A stretch of 64,000 nt of DNA from Halorussus pelagicus (GTDB taxonomy: Archaea; Halobacteriota; Halobacteria; Halobacteriales; Haladaptataceae): assembly GCF_004087835.1 (NCBI RefSeq), contig NZ_CP035119.1, positions 2,418,001 through 2,482,000 on the forward strand, in the 5' to 3' direction. The notes beneath the pieces were generated by a model that searched no databases, had not been told where the DNA came from, and saw only the letters and a list, made by a program, of their open reading frames with translations. This document shows positions 14,033 through 47,664 of the stretch, piece after piece; position 1 is the first letter of the stretch, and the number at the start of each line of letters is the position of its first letter. The translations under genes and the position numbers were made by a program.

Positions 14033-14863
14033 ATGTTGCGAACTTCGGAACTGACGAAGGATTTCGGCGGTCTCACGGCCGTCGATGACGTAGATTTCGC
14101 GCTCGACGACGGGGAGCTGTGTTCGCTCATCGGACCCAACGGTGCCGGGAAGACCACGTTCTTCAACCTACTGACGGGCGTGTTGACCCCGACCCGCGGG
14201 ACCGTCGAAGTGCGCGAGCAGGGAGGCTGGCGCGACGTGACCGACGCCACGCCCTACGAGACCGCGAATCTCGGCCTGCACCGCTCGTACCAGATAACGA
14301 ACGTCTTTCCGACCAGCACGGTACTGGAGAACGTCCGGGTCGCCGCGCAGGCCGCCTCGAACGACGGCGCGAAGCTTTGGCGCAACGCCGAGGCGTTCGA
14401 GCGCCACCGCGAGGAGGCCCACCGAATCCTCGACCGCGTGGGTCTCGCCGACGAGGCCGACACCGCGGCCGAGAGCCTGAGCCACGGCGCGAAGCGCCAG
14501 TTGGAGGTCGGTATCGCCCTCGCGGGGGACCCCGACGTACTCCTGCTGGACGAACCCAACGCGGGGGTCTCCTCCGAGAGCGTGGACCGCATTATCGACC
14601 TCATTGAGGACGTGGCGACCGACCACGCGGTCCTGCTCGTGGAACACAACATGGACATCGTGATGAACGTCTCTGACCGCGTCGTGGTGCTGAATCAGGG
14701 CGCGGTCATCGCGGAGGGACCGCCCGAAGAGGTTCGGGGCGACCCGACCGTGCAGGAGGCGTATCTCGGCGGCTACGAGGCCGGGAGCCTCGACGCCGAC
14801 GAAACTGCGCCCGACGCCGACGCCGCGGACGCCGGGACCGACCCGGAGGAGGGGACGGCGTGA
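14033..14863 (+). CDS. ABC importer ATP-binding protein, LivG-type
   Basis: 276 residues. Walker A GPNGAGKTT (about 34-42), a Q-loop region, a degenerate signature LSHGAKRQ (about 150-157) and Walker B VLLLDEPN are visible, followed by an H-loop VEHNMD. The LSHG signature and the ETANLGLHRSYQ segment are typical of LivG. The C-terminal 30 residues are an acidic Asp/Ala tail. It energises uptake of the substrate delivered by the lipoprotein upstream. The gap to livF is 274 bp, unusually long for this operon, and contains a structured repeat. Confidence 0.85.
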   Translation: MLRTSELTKDFGGLTAVDDVDFALDDGELCSLIGPNGAGKTTFFNLLTGVLTPTRGTVEVREQGGWRDVTDATPYETANLGLHRSYQITNVFPTSTVLENVRVAAQAASNDGAKLWRNAEAFERHREEAHRILDRVGLADEADTAAESLSHGAKRQLEVGIALAGDPDVLLLDEPNAGVSSESVDRIIDLIEDVATDHAVLLVEHNMDIVMNVSDRVVVLNQGAVIAEGPPEEVRGDPTVQEAYLGGYEAGSLDADETAPDADAADAGTDPEEGTA

Positions 14864-14946
14864 CGCCGACGCTCTCCGCCGCGGCGCGCTCGGTGCGACG
14901 GACCACGGGCGAACGCTCGGTGACTCGTAGAGAATCGGGCGGGACT

Positions 14947-15061
14947 GAAAGGGGCCGACCGCTCGCGTTTACGTGGTCGTCTCAGCGACCCCTATCTCGG
15001 CCGGGCGGTGCAGAGAGGCCGAGATATGTTGGTGAGCGACCGCGAGCGGTCGGGGGCTTTC
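14947..15061 (+). repeat. 115-bp structured repeat element, copy 1
   Basis: The ends are GAAAG and CTTTC. The outer stem pairs CCGACCGCTCGCG (14955-14967) with CGCGAGCGGTCGG (15042-15054), separated from the GAAAG/CTTTC pair by a G-rich internal loop. A second stem uses GGTCGTCTC and GAGCGACC. The inner stem is TATCTCGGCC (14993-15002) with GGCCGAGATA (15017-15026) around a 14-nt loop. Copy 2 (41575-41696, minus strand) shares ends, second stem and loop, while its inner stem differs yet still pairs. It sits between livG and livF in sense orientation. Confidence 0.8.
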
Positions 15062-15137: not shown

Positions 15138-15836
15138 ATGACCCTACTCGAAGTCGAGGACGCCCACACCTACTACGGCGAGAGCCACATCCTCGAAGGC
15201 GTCTCGCTCGAAGTCGAGGAGGGCGAAGTCGTCGCCCTCGTGGGCCGCAACGGCGTCGGCAAGACGACCACGCTCCGGACCATCCTCCAGTTGACCCCGC
15301 CGAGCGAGGGCGCGGTCCGCTACCGCGGCGAGGACGTGACCGGACTAGAGACCCACGAAGTCGCCAAGATGGGCGTCGGGTGGATTCCCGAGGAGCGGCG
15401 CATCTTCACGCAACTCTCCGTCGAGGAGAATATTCGCGTCGCGGTGCCCGACGGGACGGACGCCGACGCGGCGGTCGAACGCGCTTTCGAGACGTTCCCC
15501 GACCTGCGAGACCACAAGGGCCGCGACGCCGGGAACCTCTCGGGTGGCCAACAGCAGATGCTCGCGCTCTCGCGCGGGTTGGTCGGCGACAACGACCTCC
15601 TGCTGGTGGACGAACCGAGCGAGGGTCTCGCGCCGCTCATCGTCGAGCGCGTGGCCGAGGCCCTGAACGACGCCGCAGACGACACGACCATCCTGCTGGT
15701 CGAGCAGAACCTGCCGCTGGCGCTCGACCTCGCGGACCGCTTCTACGTCGTGGACAACGGGCAGGTGGTCGAGTCCGGGAACGCCGACGAGACTTCGGCC
15801 GACGACGAACGACTCAGGAGGTATCTCAGCGCATGA
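15138..15836 (+). CDS. ABC importer ATP-binding protein, LivF-type
   Basis: 232 residues. Walker A GRNGVGKTT (about 36-44), signature LSGGQQQML, Walker B LLLVDEPSEGLAPL and H-loop VEQN are intact. The EDAHTYYGESHIL start and EERRIF segment identify the LivF branch. It pairs with the LivG-type ATPase to drive the two-permease importer. The stop overlaps the permease start by ATGA. The spacing to livG is occupied by the structured repeat. Confidence 0.87.
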   Translation: MTLLEVEDAHTYYGESHILEGVSLEVEEGEVVALVGRNGVGKTTTLRTILQLTPPSEGAVRYRGEDVTGLETHEVAKMGVGWIPEERRIFTQLSVEENIRVAVPDGTDADAAVERAFETFPDLRDHKGRDAGNLSGGQQQMLALSRGLVGDNDLLLVDEPSEGLAPLIVERVAEALNDAADDTTILLVEQNLPLALDLADRFYVVDNGQVVESGNADETSADDERLRRYLSA

Positions 15837-40225: not shown

Positions 40226-41494
40226 TCACTCCACCTGCGCGCTCGGTCGCTCGCCCGGACCGGCCACGGCCGCCTCCACCGCCGAGAGCAGTTCGTCCGG
40301 TCCCACGACGCGCCCGCGCTCGCTCAACTCGCGGTAGAGCGCCGCGGCGTCGCTCCCGGCGTAGTTGCGCTCGGCGAAGGGTCGCTCCTCGACCACGACT
40401 ACCGAGTCGGCCTCGCGGGCGGCCCGGAGGTTGGCGAGGTTGCCCGCGCCGACCTCCACGTCCGCGAGGACCGTCGCGTCCGCCCGGCGAATCCGGTCCT
40501 CGACTGCCCGGCGGGCCTCGTCGCCGACCGGCGCGAACGGTTCCTCGGTCACGGCGTCGAGACCGAGCGACCGGGCGGTTTCGAGGTCCGAATCGCCCTC
40601 GTTGAGCGCGCCGACCGACACCTCGTAGCCCGCCGCCGAGAGGACGTAGAGAAGTCGTGAAACCGTGCCGCCGCCTCCGACGACGTGAACGCGCCCCTCG
40701 CTCTCGGTCGGGCGCTCGGGCAGGGCCGTGACGTACGTGGACCCCGTGACGGGGTGACTGGAGACCACCGCGCGCGTGTCGAAAGCCGCTTCGAGGTGGT
40801 CCTCCGCGAGGACCGCCTCGGGGTCGCCGCTGGCCTGAATCTCGCCGCCAGCGAGCAGGCGGAGTTCGTCGCAGTAGTGGGCCGCCAGATTCAGGTCGTG
40901 GATGGCCGCCACGACAGTCTTGCCGTCCTCGTTGGCCAGTTCGCGGACGAGTTCGAGCGTTCGCACCTGATGGTTGATGTCGAGGCTCGCGGTCGGTTCG
41001 TCCAGCAAGAGTGCGGGGGTGTCCTGCGCGAGCGCGCGTGCCAGTAGGACGCGCTGGCGCTCGCCGCCCGAGACCGCCGTAATCGACCGGTCGGCGAAGT
41101 GGTCTACCTCGGTTCGCTCCATCGCGGCCTGCACTCGCTCGCGGTCGGACTCGCCCCCGTCGGAGGGTCCCGAGAACCGCGACCGATAGGGGTGGCGACC
41201 CATCGCCACCACGTCCTCGACCGGGAAGTCGAACGAGAGCGTCGTGTCCTGCGGGACGACTGCGACCCGGCGACTGGTCTCTTTCGAAGCCAACGAGGAA
41301 ACGGAATCGCCCGCCACCCGGACCTCGCCGCGGTCGGGAGTGAGGACGCCGTGAATAGTCCGGAGCAGAGTGGTCTTCCCGGCACCGTTTGGACCGACCA
41401 AGCCGACGAACTGGCCGTCCTCGATAGTCGTTGTCACGCCGTCGAGGATGGCGTTCTCGCCGAGTCGGACGGATACGTCGTCTATCTCTATCAT
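40226..41494 (-). CDS. btuD: Cobalamin importer ATPase (BtuD-like) with C-terminal extension
   Basis: 422 residues. The ABC domain (1-255) has Walker A GPNGAGKTT (34-42), signature VSGGERQR (141-148), Walker B LLLDEPTASLD (162-172) and H-loop IHDLN. The segment after residue 266 is an extra Rossmann-like domain (VHVVGGGGTVSRLLYVLSAAG) without a named function. This is the BtuD-type layout of haloarchaea; the importer was characterised in Halobacterium salinarum. The gap to btuC is 335 bp and contains the structured repeat copy 2. Iron-siderophore transport is the main alternative. Confidence 0.8.
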   Translation of the reverse strand: MIEIDDVSVRLGENAILDGVTTTIEDGQFVGLVGPNGAGKTTLLRTIHGVLTPDRGEVRVAGDSVSSLASKETSRRVAVVPQDTTLSFDFPVEDVVAMGRHPYRSRFSGPSDGGESDRERVQAAMERTEVDHFADRSITAVSGGERQRVLLARALAQDTPALLLDEPTASLDINHQVRTLELVRELANEDGKTVVAAIHDLNLAAHYCDELRLLAGGEIQASGDPEAVLAEDHLEAAFDTRAVVSSHPVTGSTYVTALPERPTESEGRVHVVGGGGTVSRLLYVLSAAGYEVSVGALNEGDSDLETARSLGLDAVTEEPFAPVGDEARRAVEDRIRRADATVLADVEVGAGNLANLRAAREADSVVVVEERPFAERNYAGSDAAALYRELSERGRVVGPDELLSAVEAAVAGPGERPSAQVE

Positions 41495-41829
41495 CGGTTT
41501 CTACGTGGGGTTTCGGTCGTCGGAGTCGTGAGAATCGTCGGAGCTGTGACTGTCGCCGGAGGAACGTGGTTTTAGAAAGCCCCCGACCGCTCGCGGTCGC
41601 TCTGCGGGATACTCGCGCCTCTCGGCAACGCCCGGCGCGAGTAGTGCCCGCAGAGACGACCACGGGTCGAAGACCCGCGAGCGGTCGGTCCCTTTCATCC
41701 ACCCACACGGTAGTCGGTAGGAGTTAGCGCGTTCCCGTCGGCTGGTCGGTTGAGCGTTCGCCTGCCAGTTGGTCGGCCGAGCGCATCCAATCGAACGTCG
41801 TCGCCTTGCGCGCGTGTCCAAATCCCGTC
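41495..41829. other. 335-bp gap inside the btu operon
   Basis: No gene is supported. The gap contains the structured element (41575-41696) in its middle. The right part (about 41700-41829) encodes nothing convincing on either strand. All neighbouring genes here run on the minus strand. Confidence 0.5.
41575..41696 (-). repeat. 122-bp structured repeat element, copy 2
   Basis: Minus-strand orientation relative to copy 1, so it is sense to the btuC-btuD transcript. The ends GAAAG/CTTTC and the 13-bp outer stem CCGACCGCTCGCG are the same. The inner stem is ACTCGCGCC (41611-41619) with GGCGCGAGT (41634-41642). The loop 41620-41633 is 12/14 identical to that of copy 1. It carries one additional hairpin (CGGGTC/GACCCG, about 41663-41677). 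A 28-nt end segment is identical in both copies. Confidence 0.8.
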
Positions 41830-42942
41830 TCACAGCGCATGCACCTCCCGCGTGCGGAGGAGATAGAGGAAGAAGGGCGCGCCCAGAAACGCAGTCACGA
41901 TGCCGACTGGTAGCTCCGCCGGTCCCGAGCGCGCCAGCGTGTCCGTGGCGACGAGGAACGTCGCGCCAGCGAGCGCGGAGGTGGGGAGTAGGATTCGGTG
42001 GTTCGGGCCGACGAGCAGGCGCATGACGTGGGGCACCACGAGACCGACAAAGCCGATGACGCCGGTGACCGCAACCGCCGCGCCGGTCATCACGCTGGCG
42101 ACTCCGAGCAGGAGGCGCTTGGTGCGCTCGACTTCGACGCCGAGCGCGTGGGCGTCCTCCTCCCCGAGCAGGAGGACGTTCAGGTCCTCCGCGTACGCGT
42201 AGAGAATCATGAACCCGGCAAGCGCGACCGGGAGGACCATCGTCACGTCGGTCCACGACGCCAGATGGAGGTGGCCCATCAACCAGTAAACCGCCCGGCG
42301 GAGGCTCTCGCCGCTCTGGAGGAGTAGAAAGGAGACGACTGCGCCGAGGAACGTCTGGACCGCGACGCCAGCGAGCAGGAGCGTTGCGACGGGCGTCCGG
42401 CCGTCCTCGGTGGCGAGCAGGTAGACGCCGAAGGCGGCCCCGAGCGCGCCGAGGAACGCCGCGGCCGGGAGCGCGAGGTGGGGCGCGAACGGGAGCGCGA
42501 AGGGAAGCGCGATGGTCGCCACCGCGCCCACCGCCGCGCCGGACGAGACGCCGATGATGGAGGGGTCGGCCATCGGATTCCGGAAGAACCCCTGCATCAC
42601 GACCCCCGCCGTCGAAAGCGCGAGACCGACGACCGCCCCGAGCGCGATGCGGGGCAGGCGCAGCGTTATCACGATTGTTTGGGCGGTCTCGGGCACTGCG
42701 AAGTCGAAAATCGCCGCGAACGCGACGGTCGGGGTCGGGACCGAAATAGCGAGTCCCGCGATTCGGAGCGTCCGCTCGGCCACGCCGACCCCGGCGGGCA
42801 CGGCGACGGCGTTCAGAAGCACTTTCCCGACGACGAGATAGTCGAGCGCCACCGGCCCGATTGCGGCGCTGACAACCACGACGACCGCCAGCGCGGCGGT
42901 CAGTCCGGCCGACCAGCCGACGACTCGCGCGGAGCCACGCAT
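41830..42942 (-). CDS. btuC: Cobalamin/siderophore-type ABC permease (BtuC/FecCD family)
   Basis: 370 residues with about ten membrane segments. Family marks are [56 protein letters not shown] as the ATPase-coupling loop, and [23 protein letters not shown]. The frame runs upstream to 43284, but the ATG at 42942 fits the family and leaves the btuF promoter intact. It is divergent from the binding-protein gene and precedes btuD. Confidence 0.85.
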
Positions 42943-44515: not shown

Positions 44516-44748
44516 TGGCGATGCAGAAACTCGGTGCGGTCGTCCGGACCGCGCAGGGACTCGCGGTCGTCCGCTGTTCCGACGACGACCATCCGGACGT
44601 GGGCACCGAGGCGGTGGACGAGCAGTTGCGTAGCGTGGGCCGAGTCGTGGACGTGTTCGGCCCGGTCTCGCGGCCCTACGTCGCGGTCACGCCCGACGAA
44701 GGGGTCGCGCTGGCTCCCCTTCTCGGCAAGAAACTCTACGCGCGGTAG
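44515..44748 (+). CDS. gar1: H/ACA ribonucleoprotein protein Gar1
   Basis: 77 residues, a small six-stranded beta-barrel: QKLGAVVRTAQGLAVVR, then LRSVGRVVDVFGPVSRPYVAVTP. Gar1 joins Cbf5, Nop10 and L7Ae in the H/ACA RNP that makes pseudouridine in rRNA. It overlaps srp19, so both are one transcript. The RNA-pairing partner genes are outside the window. Confidence 0.88.
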   Translation: MAMQKLGAVVRTAQGLAVVRCSDDDHPDVGTEAVDEQLRSVGRVVDVFGPVSRPYVAVTPDEGVALAPLLGKKLYAR

Positions 44749-44787: not shown

Positions 44788-47664
44788 CTACTCGCTCGCG
44801 GACCGTCCGACTAGTAGCGCGACGGTCCCGACACCGACCGGGACGAGCGCCGAGAGACCGTCATCGGACTCTCCGGAGGCCGACGCGAACGTTGTCGTCC
44901 CTCCGGCGGTCGTCGCGGTGTCCGTGGTCGGAAGCGCCTCGGTCGTCGTGGCGACCGCATCGCCGCCGAAGTCCACGATGGCGGTGTCGAAGACGAACTC
45001 GTCGGTGGCGTTCGCGTACGGCACGTCCGTCGAACCGCCGCTCTCCACGAAGTCGAACTGCTGGTCGGCGTCGGTGTCTCGGTGGGGAACCGCGAGGAGG
45101 ACCTGTCGGCCCGAGAGGTCGGCGAGTAGCGACACCTCGACCGCCTCGTATTCGCCCGGCGCGAGGTACTCCGAGACGCCGACGACGTTCCCGTTCGCGT
45201 CGTAGGCCGCGACGAATCCGCCCTCGGGCAGGACCGCCGACTCGACGACGACCGCGTCGTCGGCGCTCTGGTTCTGGAACGTGACGCTCGCCGGGGTCAC
45301 GGTCGTGGTAGTTTCCGTCGCGGTGGTTGTGGTGGTTTCCGGTGTGGTAGTTGCGGTGGTCGTGGTGGTTTCTGGCGTCGTGGTTGTCGTGATTTCCGTC
45401 GTTGTAGTTGTAGGCGTCGCGGTTTCCGTGGTGGTCTGTTCGGTCGTCGTCTCGGTCATCGCGGTTGTCGTCGTTTCCGCTGTCGTGGTGGTCTCCTCAG
45501 TCGTAATGGTCTCGGTCGTCGTTTCTGCTGTCGCGGTCGTCTCCTCAGTGGTCTCGTCCGTGGTCGTGGTCTCCTCCGTTATCGTGGTCTGAGTCGTCGG
45601 GGTTGCGGTCGTAGTTGTCTCCTCTGTCGTCGGGGTTGCGGTCGTTGTCTCAGTCGTGGTTGTCGTCAGGTTTCTCGTAGTCGTCGCCTCGGTTGTCGTG
45701 GTTTCAGTTGTCTTCGGAGTTTCCTCGGTCGTTGCCGTAGTCGTGGTCGTCTCGATAGTCGCGGTTTCGGTCGTCTCGGTCGTCGTCGCGGTTGTCTCCG
45801 TGGGTTCGATTACGGTCTCCTGAATCGGGGTCACGGTCTCCGTGGTCGTGGTACGAACCGTGGTCGTGCCCGGCGTCTCCGTCGGTTGCGTGGCAACCAC
45901 CTCCGCGGCGGCCGAGGCGGCGCTCTGCTGCAACTCCTCGGGGGGCACGTCCTCGCCCTCAGCGACCAGTTCCGCCGTCTCGACCGCGGCCTGCCGACTC
46001 GCGTCCAGTATCTCCGCGGCCGCGGTAACGCCCTCCTCGGCGGCGGACTCCGCGGCCCCGGCGGCCGCGCCGCTGGTGATAGCGAGGGTCTGCTCGGCGC
46101 TGGCGTCCTCGGTCTCGGCGGCCGACGCGACGCCGCCGGAGGCGGCACCGCGGGCGGCGGCCTGTATCTGGGTGACGCTGGCCACCTGACTCTGCGAGAC
46201 GCTTCCGGTCGCGGCCCCCTGCGCGGCGGCGAGAATCTGGACCTGCGTCACGTCCACGCGCTGACTCTGGACGACCGCACCGGCGGCCGACCCCTCCGCC
46301 GCGGCCTGAATCTGCGCGACGTTCGCGGACTGGGACTGGACCAGCGACCCGAACGCGGCCCCGCGAGAGGCCGCCTGCACCTGTCGCACGTTCACGGTCT
46401 GGACCTGCGTCACGCCGCCCTTGGCCGCGCCGAGCGCGGCGGCCTGCACCTGCTCGACGGTCACCTCTTGGCGCTGGACGACGGACTCGACCGCGCCGGT
46501 GGCCGCGCCCGCGGCGGCGACCTGAATCTGGACGACGTTCACTATCTGGACCTGCACGACCGTCACCTTGGTCAGCGCGCCGCGGGCCGCGCCGAGCGTC
46601 GCGGCCTGCACTTGCTCGACGTTCACCCGCTGGACCTGCTTCACCACTCCGCCTTGGGCCGCACCCTCGGCGGCGAGTTGTATCTGCTCGACGGTGACGC
46701 GCTGGGTCTGACTGATGGCACCCGAGGCCGCCCCGCGGCAGGCCGCCTCGACCTTCTCGGCCGGGACCTCCCTCGGCTTGGGCTTTTTCACGCCGCCCTT
46801 GGCCGCGCCGAGGGCGGCGACCTGCACCTGCTTGACGTTCACTCGCTGGACCTGGACGAGCGCGCCGCCCGCGGACCCGCGCGCGGCCGACTGAAGCTGA
46901 CGAGCGCCGACGCGCTGGTGCTGGGCGAGCGACCCGAACGCCGCGCCTTGGGCGGCCTCCTGCACCTTACCGATGGCCGTCACGTCGTTCCGACCGGCCG
47001 AGGTCGCCGCGCCGTGGGCCGCCCCGCGCGCCGCGACCTGTATCTGGGTCACGCTCGCGGTCTGTCGCTGGGCGACCGACCCGTGGGCCGCCCCGAACGC
47101 CGCACCTTGCACTTGGACGATTTCGGCGGCTTGGGTCTGGACGATGCCGCCCGTCGCGGCCCCGCGGACCGCGGACTGAATCTGGCGGACGGTCGTCTCT
47201 TGGGACTGCAACAGCGCGCCGTGGGCCGCTCCGCGCGCCGCGACGAGAACCTTGCCGACGTTCGCGTCGGAGTCGTTCGGTGCGGCCGCGACCGCACCGC
47301 GGACCGCCGCCGTCCGCTTTCGGTCGGGAACGGTCGCGCCCTGAATCTCGGCGAGTTGCGCACCCTGTCTGGCACCGAGTTCGGCCGCCTCGCGCGGCGT
47401 CAGTTCGCCCACGTCCTGTTCGGCCCGCGCCGCGTTCGCGGGCGCGACGCCGAGTCCGGTCGCGTCGGTGTTCGGAAGCGTTTCGAGCGTTCGCACGACT
47501 TGCAGAGCGTCGCCAGTGCGAGCCGATTCGGCGTCTCCTTGCGCTGTCGATTGGTTCGACTGCGCCGCGTCGTCTCCGGCCGAGAGACCCACGGCGGTCG
47601 GGGCCGCGAACCCGGCGACGAGGATGACGACGAGGACGAGCGCGCGAGCGCGATTCGAGTGCAT
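44788..47664 (-). CDS. Large repeat surface protein with Thr-rich stalk and C-terminal anchor
   Basis: 958 residues. A Sec signal (about 1-26) is followed by sixteen repeats of 23 residues on average (145-513) with consensus GAAxG..[VL]xQxQ...VxQ[VI]QxAA. A helical Ala/Glu-rich part (about 515-592) leads into a stalk of almost pure Thr with Glu and Ala (593-790), a likely O-glycosylated rod. A beta-rich domain (about 792-896; DUF7282-like, from memory) and a C-terminal hydrophobic segment (939-953) finish it. The repeat part looks like a solenoid or self-assembling array. No enzymatic site is visible. It is convergent with gar1. The shadow frame on the plus strand is spurious. Confidence 0.8.
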   Translation of the reverse strand: MHSNRARALVLVVILVAGFAAPTAVGLSAGDDAAQSNQSTAQGDAESARTGDALQVVRTLETLPNTDATGLGVAPANAARAEQDVGELTPREAAELGARQGAQLAEIQGATVPDRKRTAAVRGAVAAAPNDSDANVGKVLVAARGAAHGALLQSQETTVRQIQSAVRGAATGGIVQTQAAEIVQVQGAAFGAAHGSVAQRQTASVTQIQVAARGAAHGAATSAGRNDVTAIGKVQEAAQGAAFGSLAQHQRVGARQLQSAARGSAGGALVQVQRVNVKQVQVAALGAAKGGVKKPKPREVPAEKVEAACRGAASGAISQTQRVTVEQIQLAAEGAAQGGVVKQVQRVNVEQVQAATLGAARGALTKVTVVQVQIVNVVQIQVAAAGAATGAVESVVQRQEVTVEQVQAAALGAAKGGVTQVQTVNVRQVQAASRGAAFGSLVQSQSANVAQIQAAAEGSAAGAVVQSQRVDVTQVQILAAAQGAATGSVSQSQVASVTQIQAAARGAASGGVASAAETEDASAEQTLAITSGAAAGAAESAAEEGVTAAAEILDASRQAAVETAELVAEGEDVPPEELQQSAASAAAEVVATQPTETPGTTTVRTTTTETVTPIQETVIEPTETTATTTETTETATIETTTTTATTEETPKTTETTTTEATTTRNLTTTTTETTTATPTTEETTTTATPTTQTTITEETTTTDETTEETTATAETTTETITTEETTTTAETTTTAMTETTTEQTTTETATPTTTTTEITTTTTPETTTTTATTTPETTTTTATETTTTVTPASVTFQNQSADDAVVVESAVLPEGGFVAAYDANGNVVGVSEYLAPGEYEAVEVSLLADLSGRQVLLAVPHRDTDADQQFDFVESGGSTDVPYANATDEFVFDTAIVDFGGDAVATTTEALPTTDTATTAGGTTTFASASGESDDGLSALVPVGVGTVALLVGRSASE
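45295..45888 (-). repeat. Thr-rich low-complexity stalk coding segment
   Basis: Residues 593-790 of the surface protein, roughly 65 percent Thr, with TTTTE, TTEE and TATP motifs. At DNA level this is an ACC/ACG/ACT/GAA-rich low-complexity tract, a likely site of length variation by slippage. Confidence 0.85.
46126..47244 (-). repeat. Sixteen 23-residue (69-bp) repeats
   Basis: Glycine of the GAAxG or GSAxG motif falls at residues 145, 168, 191, 214, 240, 263, 286, 311, 334, 358, 386, 412, 435, 458, 483 and 506. The spacing is 23 in nine of the fifteen intervals and 24-28 elsewhere. Units are diverged in DNA but keep the Gln-x-Gln and Val-x-Gln-Val/Ile-Gln pattern. Confidence 0.9.

Follow-up and report, generated by a model that had tools for sequence, protein, structure and literature searches.

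What is the structured repeat that occurs twice in a 64,000-nt stretch of the Halorussus pelagicus genome (hereafter, the window), and for what is its structure kept? An initial annotation of the sequence had placed copy 1 at 14947-15061 (+) and copy 2 at 41575-41696 (-), in sense orientation between genes of ABC importer operons, and both copies were found at these positions. The core hairpin of copy 1 begins at 14947 as proposed, but the conserved sequence reaches about 10 to 15 nt further 5′. The features of the two loci are as follows.

14033-14863 (+): livG/urtD-type ABC ATPase gene, upstream of copy 1 (NCBIfam similarity, below curated cut-offs)
14885-14926 (+): about two upstream units of the 27-nt type, around GCGCTCGGTGCGACGGACCACGGGCGAACGCTCGGTG
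14937-14946 (+): conserved 5′ flank GGGYGGRACT (alignment columns 1 to 10)
14947-15061 (+): copy 1 core, the P1-P2-P3 hairpin, sense, between the livG- and livF-type genes
14947-14951 (+): basal stem, 5′ strand GAAAG, near-invariant in the alignment, pairing with CTTTC at 15057-15061
14952-14954 (+): basal 3x3 internal loop, 5′ side GGG; 3′ side GGG at 15054-15056
14955-14967 (+): P1, 5′ strand CCGACCGCTCGCG; 3′ strand at 15041-15053
14975-14989 (+): P2, 5′ strand with a single-nucleotide bulge, T, at 14980; 3′ strand at 15028-15041
14990-14992 (+): P2/P3 junction, CCC opposite a single T (15027)
14993-15026 (+): P3 and terminal loop; 14993-15002 pairs with 15017-15026, with a 14-nt loop at 15003-15016, subtype GGGCRKTGCNGAGA
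15138-15836 (+): livF/urtE-type ABC ATPase gene, downstream of copy 1 (NCBIfam similarity, below curated cut-offs)
40226-41494 (-): BtuD/corrinoid-type ATPase gene, downstream of copy 2 (NCBIfam similarity to NF007082)
41575-41696 (-): copy 2 core with an extra hairpin, P1b (GGGTCTTCGACCC), sense, between the btuC- and btuD-type genes
41697-41829 (-): copy 2 upstream region between the btuC stop and the core, with GCGCTCGG units and P0-like TACCGTGTGGGTGGAT
41830-42942 (-): BtuC-type permease gene, upstream of copy 2 (NCBIfam NF007081, above cut-off)

Both hairpins form as described in the initial annotation, with minimum free energies (MFE) of -69.5 kcal/mol (z, -6.1) for copy 1 and -88.2 kcal/mol (z, -8.2) for copy 2; no shuffled sequence was equally stable in either case. 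The 13-bp outer stem (CCGACCGCTCGCG/CGCGAGCGGTCGG) has the same letters in the two copies, and the G-rich internal loop, which is GGG/GGG in copy 1, reads GGA/GGG in copy 2. The inner stem differs at five adjacent positions (TATCTCGGCC versus TACTCGCGCC), every one of which is paired in both copies, as had been claimed; P2, which was absent from that list, also covaries (CTCAGCGAC versus CTCTGCGGG). Twelve of 14 loop positions are indeed shared (GGGCGGTGCAGAGA versus GGGCGTTGCCGAGA), but to call this loop conserved is true only of a subtype (27 of 87 copies). In many other copies, the 5′ flank GGGYGGRACT is part of a small hairpin, P0 (CCACCGnnnGGGTGG). Element length ranges from about 115 to 245 nt, and long copies bear additional arms (P4 and P5) plus a nested two-hairpin insert.

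Copies 1 and 2 are members of a large, haloarchaea-wide family of noncoding intergenic structured repeats. In a BLAST search, copy 1 matched its own genome at about eight places, some of them longer. A covariance model (R1) was built on ten short copies taken from H. pelagicus and its relatives; it gives copy 1 142.8 bits and copy 2 139.1 bits, scores that are not independent because both are among the ten training copies, and the rest of the window lies far below. A weak match at 44522-44615 was dismissed, being without a recognizable core motif. Elsewhere in the window, 44788-47664 (-) encodes a predicted 958-aa protein with repeats of about 23 residues and a long Thr/Glu-rich tail. R1 identifies eight sense copies in the H. 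pelagicus genome. The search of haloarchaeal genomes that had been proposed as a check on the two copies found further copies in 177 of 394 Halobacteria genomes and 60 of 86 genera (class-wide sample, E<=1e-4), the copies per genome being lower bounds because at most the best eight candidates were scored in each. Besides Halorussus, carriers include Haladaptatus, Haloarcula, Halomicroarcula, and Halonotius, and core copies also reside on plasmids of Halorussus, Haladaptatus, and Haloarcula, one of them in Haloarcula hispanica. Copy number varies widely among sister Halorussus genomes: there are at least 115 matches in G005, 96 in G010, 82 in G012, 55 in G007, and 34 in G009, among the best 150 or fewer candidates scored per genome and with some weak antisense matches to the palindrome taken in, whereas G013 has a single match and G008 none.

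No core was seen outside the class Halobacteria, the eight matching genomes of a phylum sample all belonging to one order, and a phage collection searched with the core gave no match. Rfam holds no family that matches the core at the gathering score, and thresholds of E<=1 or 5 gave weak chance matches only. A literature search for the core sequence found nothing, and haloarchaea go unmentioned in the RepRanger and GTAG/CGTC papers. The family appears not to have been described previously: neither Rfam nor the literature searched contains this class-wide, strongly covarying element, of which a genome can carry up to about 100 copies.

That selection acts on structure, as the initial annotation had concluded from two copies, is now strongly supported by covariation over 62 copies and, separately, at two orthologous sites. 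In the alignment of 62 copies from named genomes, which was fitted by the model and is hence biased toward the structure, 95.5% of pair cells are standard pairs and double changes occur at 28 of 41 pairs; none of 500 shuffles matches these values, and sliding the partners by 1 to 3 columns lowers pairing to 34 to 44%. The covariation thus exceeds these controls, as expected of a structured RNA. An independent MAFFT alignment of ten copies shows double changes at 16 of 41 pairs. At the btuC-btuD site alone, 97.7% of cells are paired and both sides have changed at 18 of 41 pairs; at the livG-livF site, the values are 95.0% and 19 of 41, in a set (A6) that contains one antisense row. The unpaired features are as well kept as the paired ones, and it is the terminal loop that varies instead. 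The basal 3x3 loop is exactly GGG/GGG in 76 of 87 copies, the one-nucleotide bulge is kept in all 87 (84 with nothing opposite), and the P2/P3 junction has its 3-nt side in 82 and its single T in 87. Because the shape is kept while the letters change, a cell factor most likely recognizes the folded form. A G-quadruplex at the G-rich base (G tracts in 82 of 87 copies) was also considered but is not supported; ViennaRNA with the quadruplex option places none in the core MFE structure.

The strands are not equivalent. In two copy sets, with one ambiguous pair omitted, the ratio of G-U pairs to A-C mismatches is 48:8 and 67:25; these tallies count related copies more than once, so that p-values serve only as a guide. 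With that pair, at the base of P2, included, the ratios are 48:35 and 68:45. Equal numbers would be expected of a DNA palindrome that behaves alike on both strands, and the asymmetry therefore points to folding of a single strand, either RNA or single-stranded DNA; a folded single DNA strand would likewise yield it.

None of 147 copies overlaps a gene predicted by a simple gene caller made for this analysis. Among 138 copies with both neighbors called, those between codirectional genes are in sense orientation in 61 cases and antisense in 24 (p=7e-5), while 29 copies lie between divergent and 24 between convergent genes, together 53 (about 38%). Distances to the neighboring genes vary. Sense placement within ABC importer operons holds for copies 1 and 2, but such operons are not representative of the family; similarly, the suggested RNA element internal to operons suits this pair and the sense excess, but the divergent and convergent placements show that the core is not specific to operons. 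These 53 copies, as well as the varying distances, count against a reading in terms of transcripts, and the copies between divergent genes lie about 170 nt before the next start, where leaderless haloarchaeal transcripts would not extend.

The two sites have a long history within Halorussus. At livG-livF, the element is found in 15 of 16 species (12 full copies, 2 reduced to P1, and 1 degenerate and without an R1 match), and at btuC-btuD in 15 of 17, in the same orientation across the genus at both sites, where flanking genes are just about 75 to 90% identical. G008 has the element at neither site. The btuC-btuD site of G013 is without the core but retains a remnant of the GCGCTCGG unit upstream together with an end resembling CTTTC, a pattern that suggests loss of the core by internal deletion. 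Since G013 has one copy and G008 none, either the function can be done without or it requires a factor missing from those genomes. In three genomes, mean identity is 0.821 between orthologous copies (10 pairs), 0.829 within a genome, and 0.811 between genomes; that orthologous copies are no more alike than others fits either gene conversion or saturation under structural constraint. One G014 copy (L033, 1506-1698, -) has its inner P2/P3 arm inverted relative to P1, which is evidence of DNA-level inversion within the palindrome.

Other repeats accompany the core. A second structured repeat, D0 (GGCGCGYGCTGG-hairpin-GCGCGAGGGAYGAG...CGGYTGGGGAGG), is likewise haloarchaea-wide (137 of 294 genomes by model R2) and often lies upstream of the core; it was seen in L003 (1339-1440), in L223 (near 4870), and at loci of G189, G200, and G254 (L181-L185 and L192-L200). 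In the last three genomes, every examined core copy has D0 immediately upstream, as do some Halorussus copies; D0 also occurs alone, was not found beside any of six core copies in the f13 genome G125, and is lacking from G008, as is the core. D0 had no Rfam match in the loci tested. That it might form an invariant 5′ part of a single long RNA was considered but set aside, since D0 and the core also occur apart and oppositely oriented. Small-hairpin units of 27 nt form exact tandem arrays upstream of the core at livG-livF in G010 and G003 and are seen at this site in L109 and L112 (e.g., CACCGGGAAACGGACGGTGACACAGAC). A nested two-hairpin module (GGTTCGAGAG..CTCTCGTCATCCCGAAAATC..GATTTTCG; L005 1640-1720, L036, L053, L054, and L277) sits within arms of the core and of D0 and stands alone in other haloarchaea. 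In some species, the P1 3′ half (GCGAGCGGGCGGGGGCTTTCGAGG) is repeated in tandem downstream of the core with a period of about 55 nt (L038 1631-1740, L109, L114, and L123).

A mobile origin of the core is possible. Its dispersal, with 0 to more than 100 matches per genome inside one genus, its presence on plasmids of three genera, the hairpin modules inserted in its arms, and its resemblance to the small mobile repeats (SMRs) of Haloquadratum in size (about 110 bp), inverted ends, and lack of a visible target duplication (PMC3119063) would all suit a selfish nonautonomous palindrome, like SMRs, PATEs, or REPINs, whose structure is selected so that an enzyme acting in trans can mobilize a folded DNA strand and for which any host function is incidental. 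We consider this rather doubtful, because both sites are occupied in one orientation genus-wide between genes that have diverged as noted, old resident copies still covary, and no copy lies within a gene. A Y1 (HUH) transposase that tracks the core, as in REP/REPIN systems with RAYT, was rejected as the enzyme: Y1 genes are absent in 8 of 18 Halorussus genomes, several of those with more than 20 core copies, and many-copy G010, G002, G001, G003, and G009 have none. A plain MITE, as the initial annotation had also considered, does not fit, given the strong covariation, the occupancy conserved between species, and the absence of a target site duplication flanking either window copy (judged by eye; conserved sequence passes the stem 5′, and the true ends are uncertain). 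Scattered copies without covariation would have spoken for it; the copies are many and scattered, and they covary.

Could covariation arise by mutation without selection? Template switching in a DNA palindrome would copy changes between the arms and gene conversion would spread them, which accords with the equal identity of orthologous and other copies (0.82 against 0.83 within and 0.81 between genomes) and with the inverted arm of L033. Palindrome correction would also mend irregularities, however, and almost every copy retains the G/G loop, the 1-nt bulge, and the 3/1 junction in unpaired form; nor is an excess of G-U over A-C expected from a strand-symmetric process, and we hold this origin to be improbable. 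The strong structure and the copies between divergent genes might indicate a family of independent small noncoding RNA genes with their own promoters, but the 200 nt upstream show no AT-rich or TATA-like peak (AT, 0.28 to 0.39 versus 0.32 for the loci overall), which makes such genes very improbable. Least credible of all is a transcription terminator: the hairpin is stable and located between genes, but it is found inside operons and between divergent genes and has no clear downstream enrichment of T runs (TTTT within 40 nt in 10 of 80). In sum, known MITEs, terminators, and independent genes all seem poor matches for the core.

The reading that we prefer, tentatively and without granting it quite an even chance, is that the core is a structured repeat akin to REPs and under selection as a nucleic acid in its folded form, most likely as RNA, which would act as an intercistronic processing or stability element. 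Counted in favor of folded RNA are the structure, the sense excess, the retention of sites, the G-U asymmetry, and the intergenic placement. The folded form would most likely be present in a transcript read through from the upstream gene, where a putative host factor might recognize it by its fixed irregularities, and the fold could then serve as a processing or stability boundary between cistrons, as proposed for REPs in bacterial operons. Haloarchaea reportedly have no exosome and depend on RNase R (PMC2841640). Copies would have spread by some mechanism in trans, their sequences being homogenized or approaching saturation while the shape is retained. Mobile DNA is the better account of spread and of the swings in copy number, and RNA of the sense excess, retention, and strand asymmetry; both may apply, if a repeat that is mobile is retained because it affects transcripts. 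An unlikely extension is a haloarchaea-specific shape recognition system, in which a dedicated partner would read both the core and D0, as folded RNA or DNA strands, by bulges and G/G loops rather than by sequence, so that loss of the partner would entail loss of both repeats (G008 has neither). What keeps such repeats is a testable question, since the sister species include carriers of about 100 copies as well as one that has none.

Among known systems, integron attC sites conserve structure rather than sequence, with an unpaired spacer, an extrahelical base, and a variable tip. The core resembles them in keeping structure over sequence, with unpaired and bulged positions and a variable tip, but it has no GTTRRRY box at its base and does not occur in cassette arrays. 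PATEs, which are derived from IS605, carry near-terminal palindromes without inverted ends, whereas the core is one continuous hairpin with paired ends. The SMRs of Haloquadratum walsbyi, which occur in tens of copies, are about 110 bp long, have inverted ends without a target duplication, show nested insertions, and are mobilized in an enigmatic way; SMR-A insert into PATEs, and SMRs of one type are commonly more than 95% identical (PMC3119063). The core is like SMR-A and SMR-B in length, inverted ends, the lack of a visible target duplication, copy numbers in the tens, and nested insertions, and any mobilization of it would be just as enigmatic; unlike SMRs as described, its copies are about 75 to 88% alike (mean identity, 0.81 to 0.83), its structure is kept by covariation, and orthologous intergenic sites are held. 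REPs are palindromes of 20 to 40 bp with a GTAG/CGTC tag and associated RAYT genes (PMC3733652); they occur in many intergenic copies, also between operon genes, with proposed roles in mRNA stability and a debated evolution by gene conversion (Higgins 1988, cited in PMC12306157). Like REP, BIME, and REPIN elements, the core exists in many intergenic palindromic copies, some of them between operon genes. It does not share the short tagged palindrome of REPs, being about 115 to 245 nt long with a GAAAG...CTTTC base and three stems with fixed loops, and it is confined to Halobacteria, where it would give archaea a counterpart of the bacterial REP elements.
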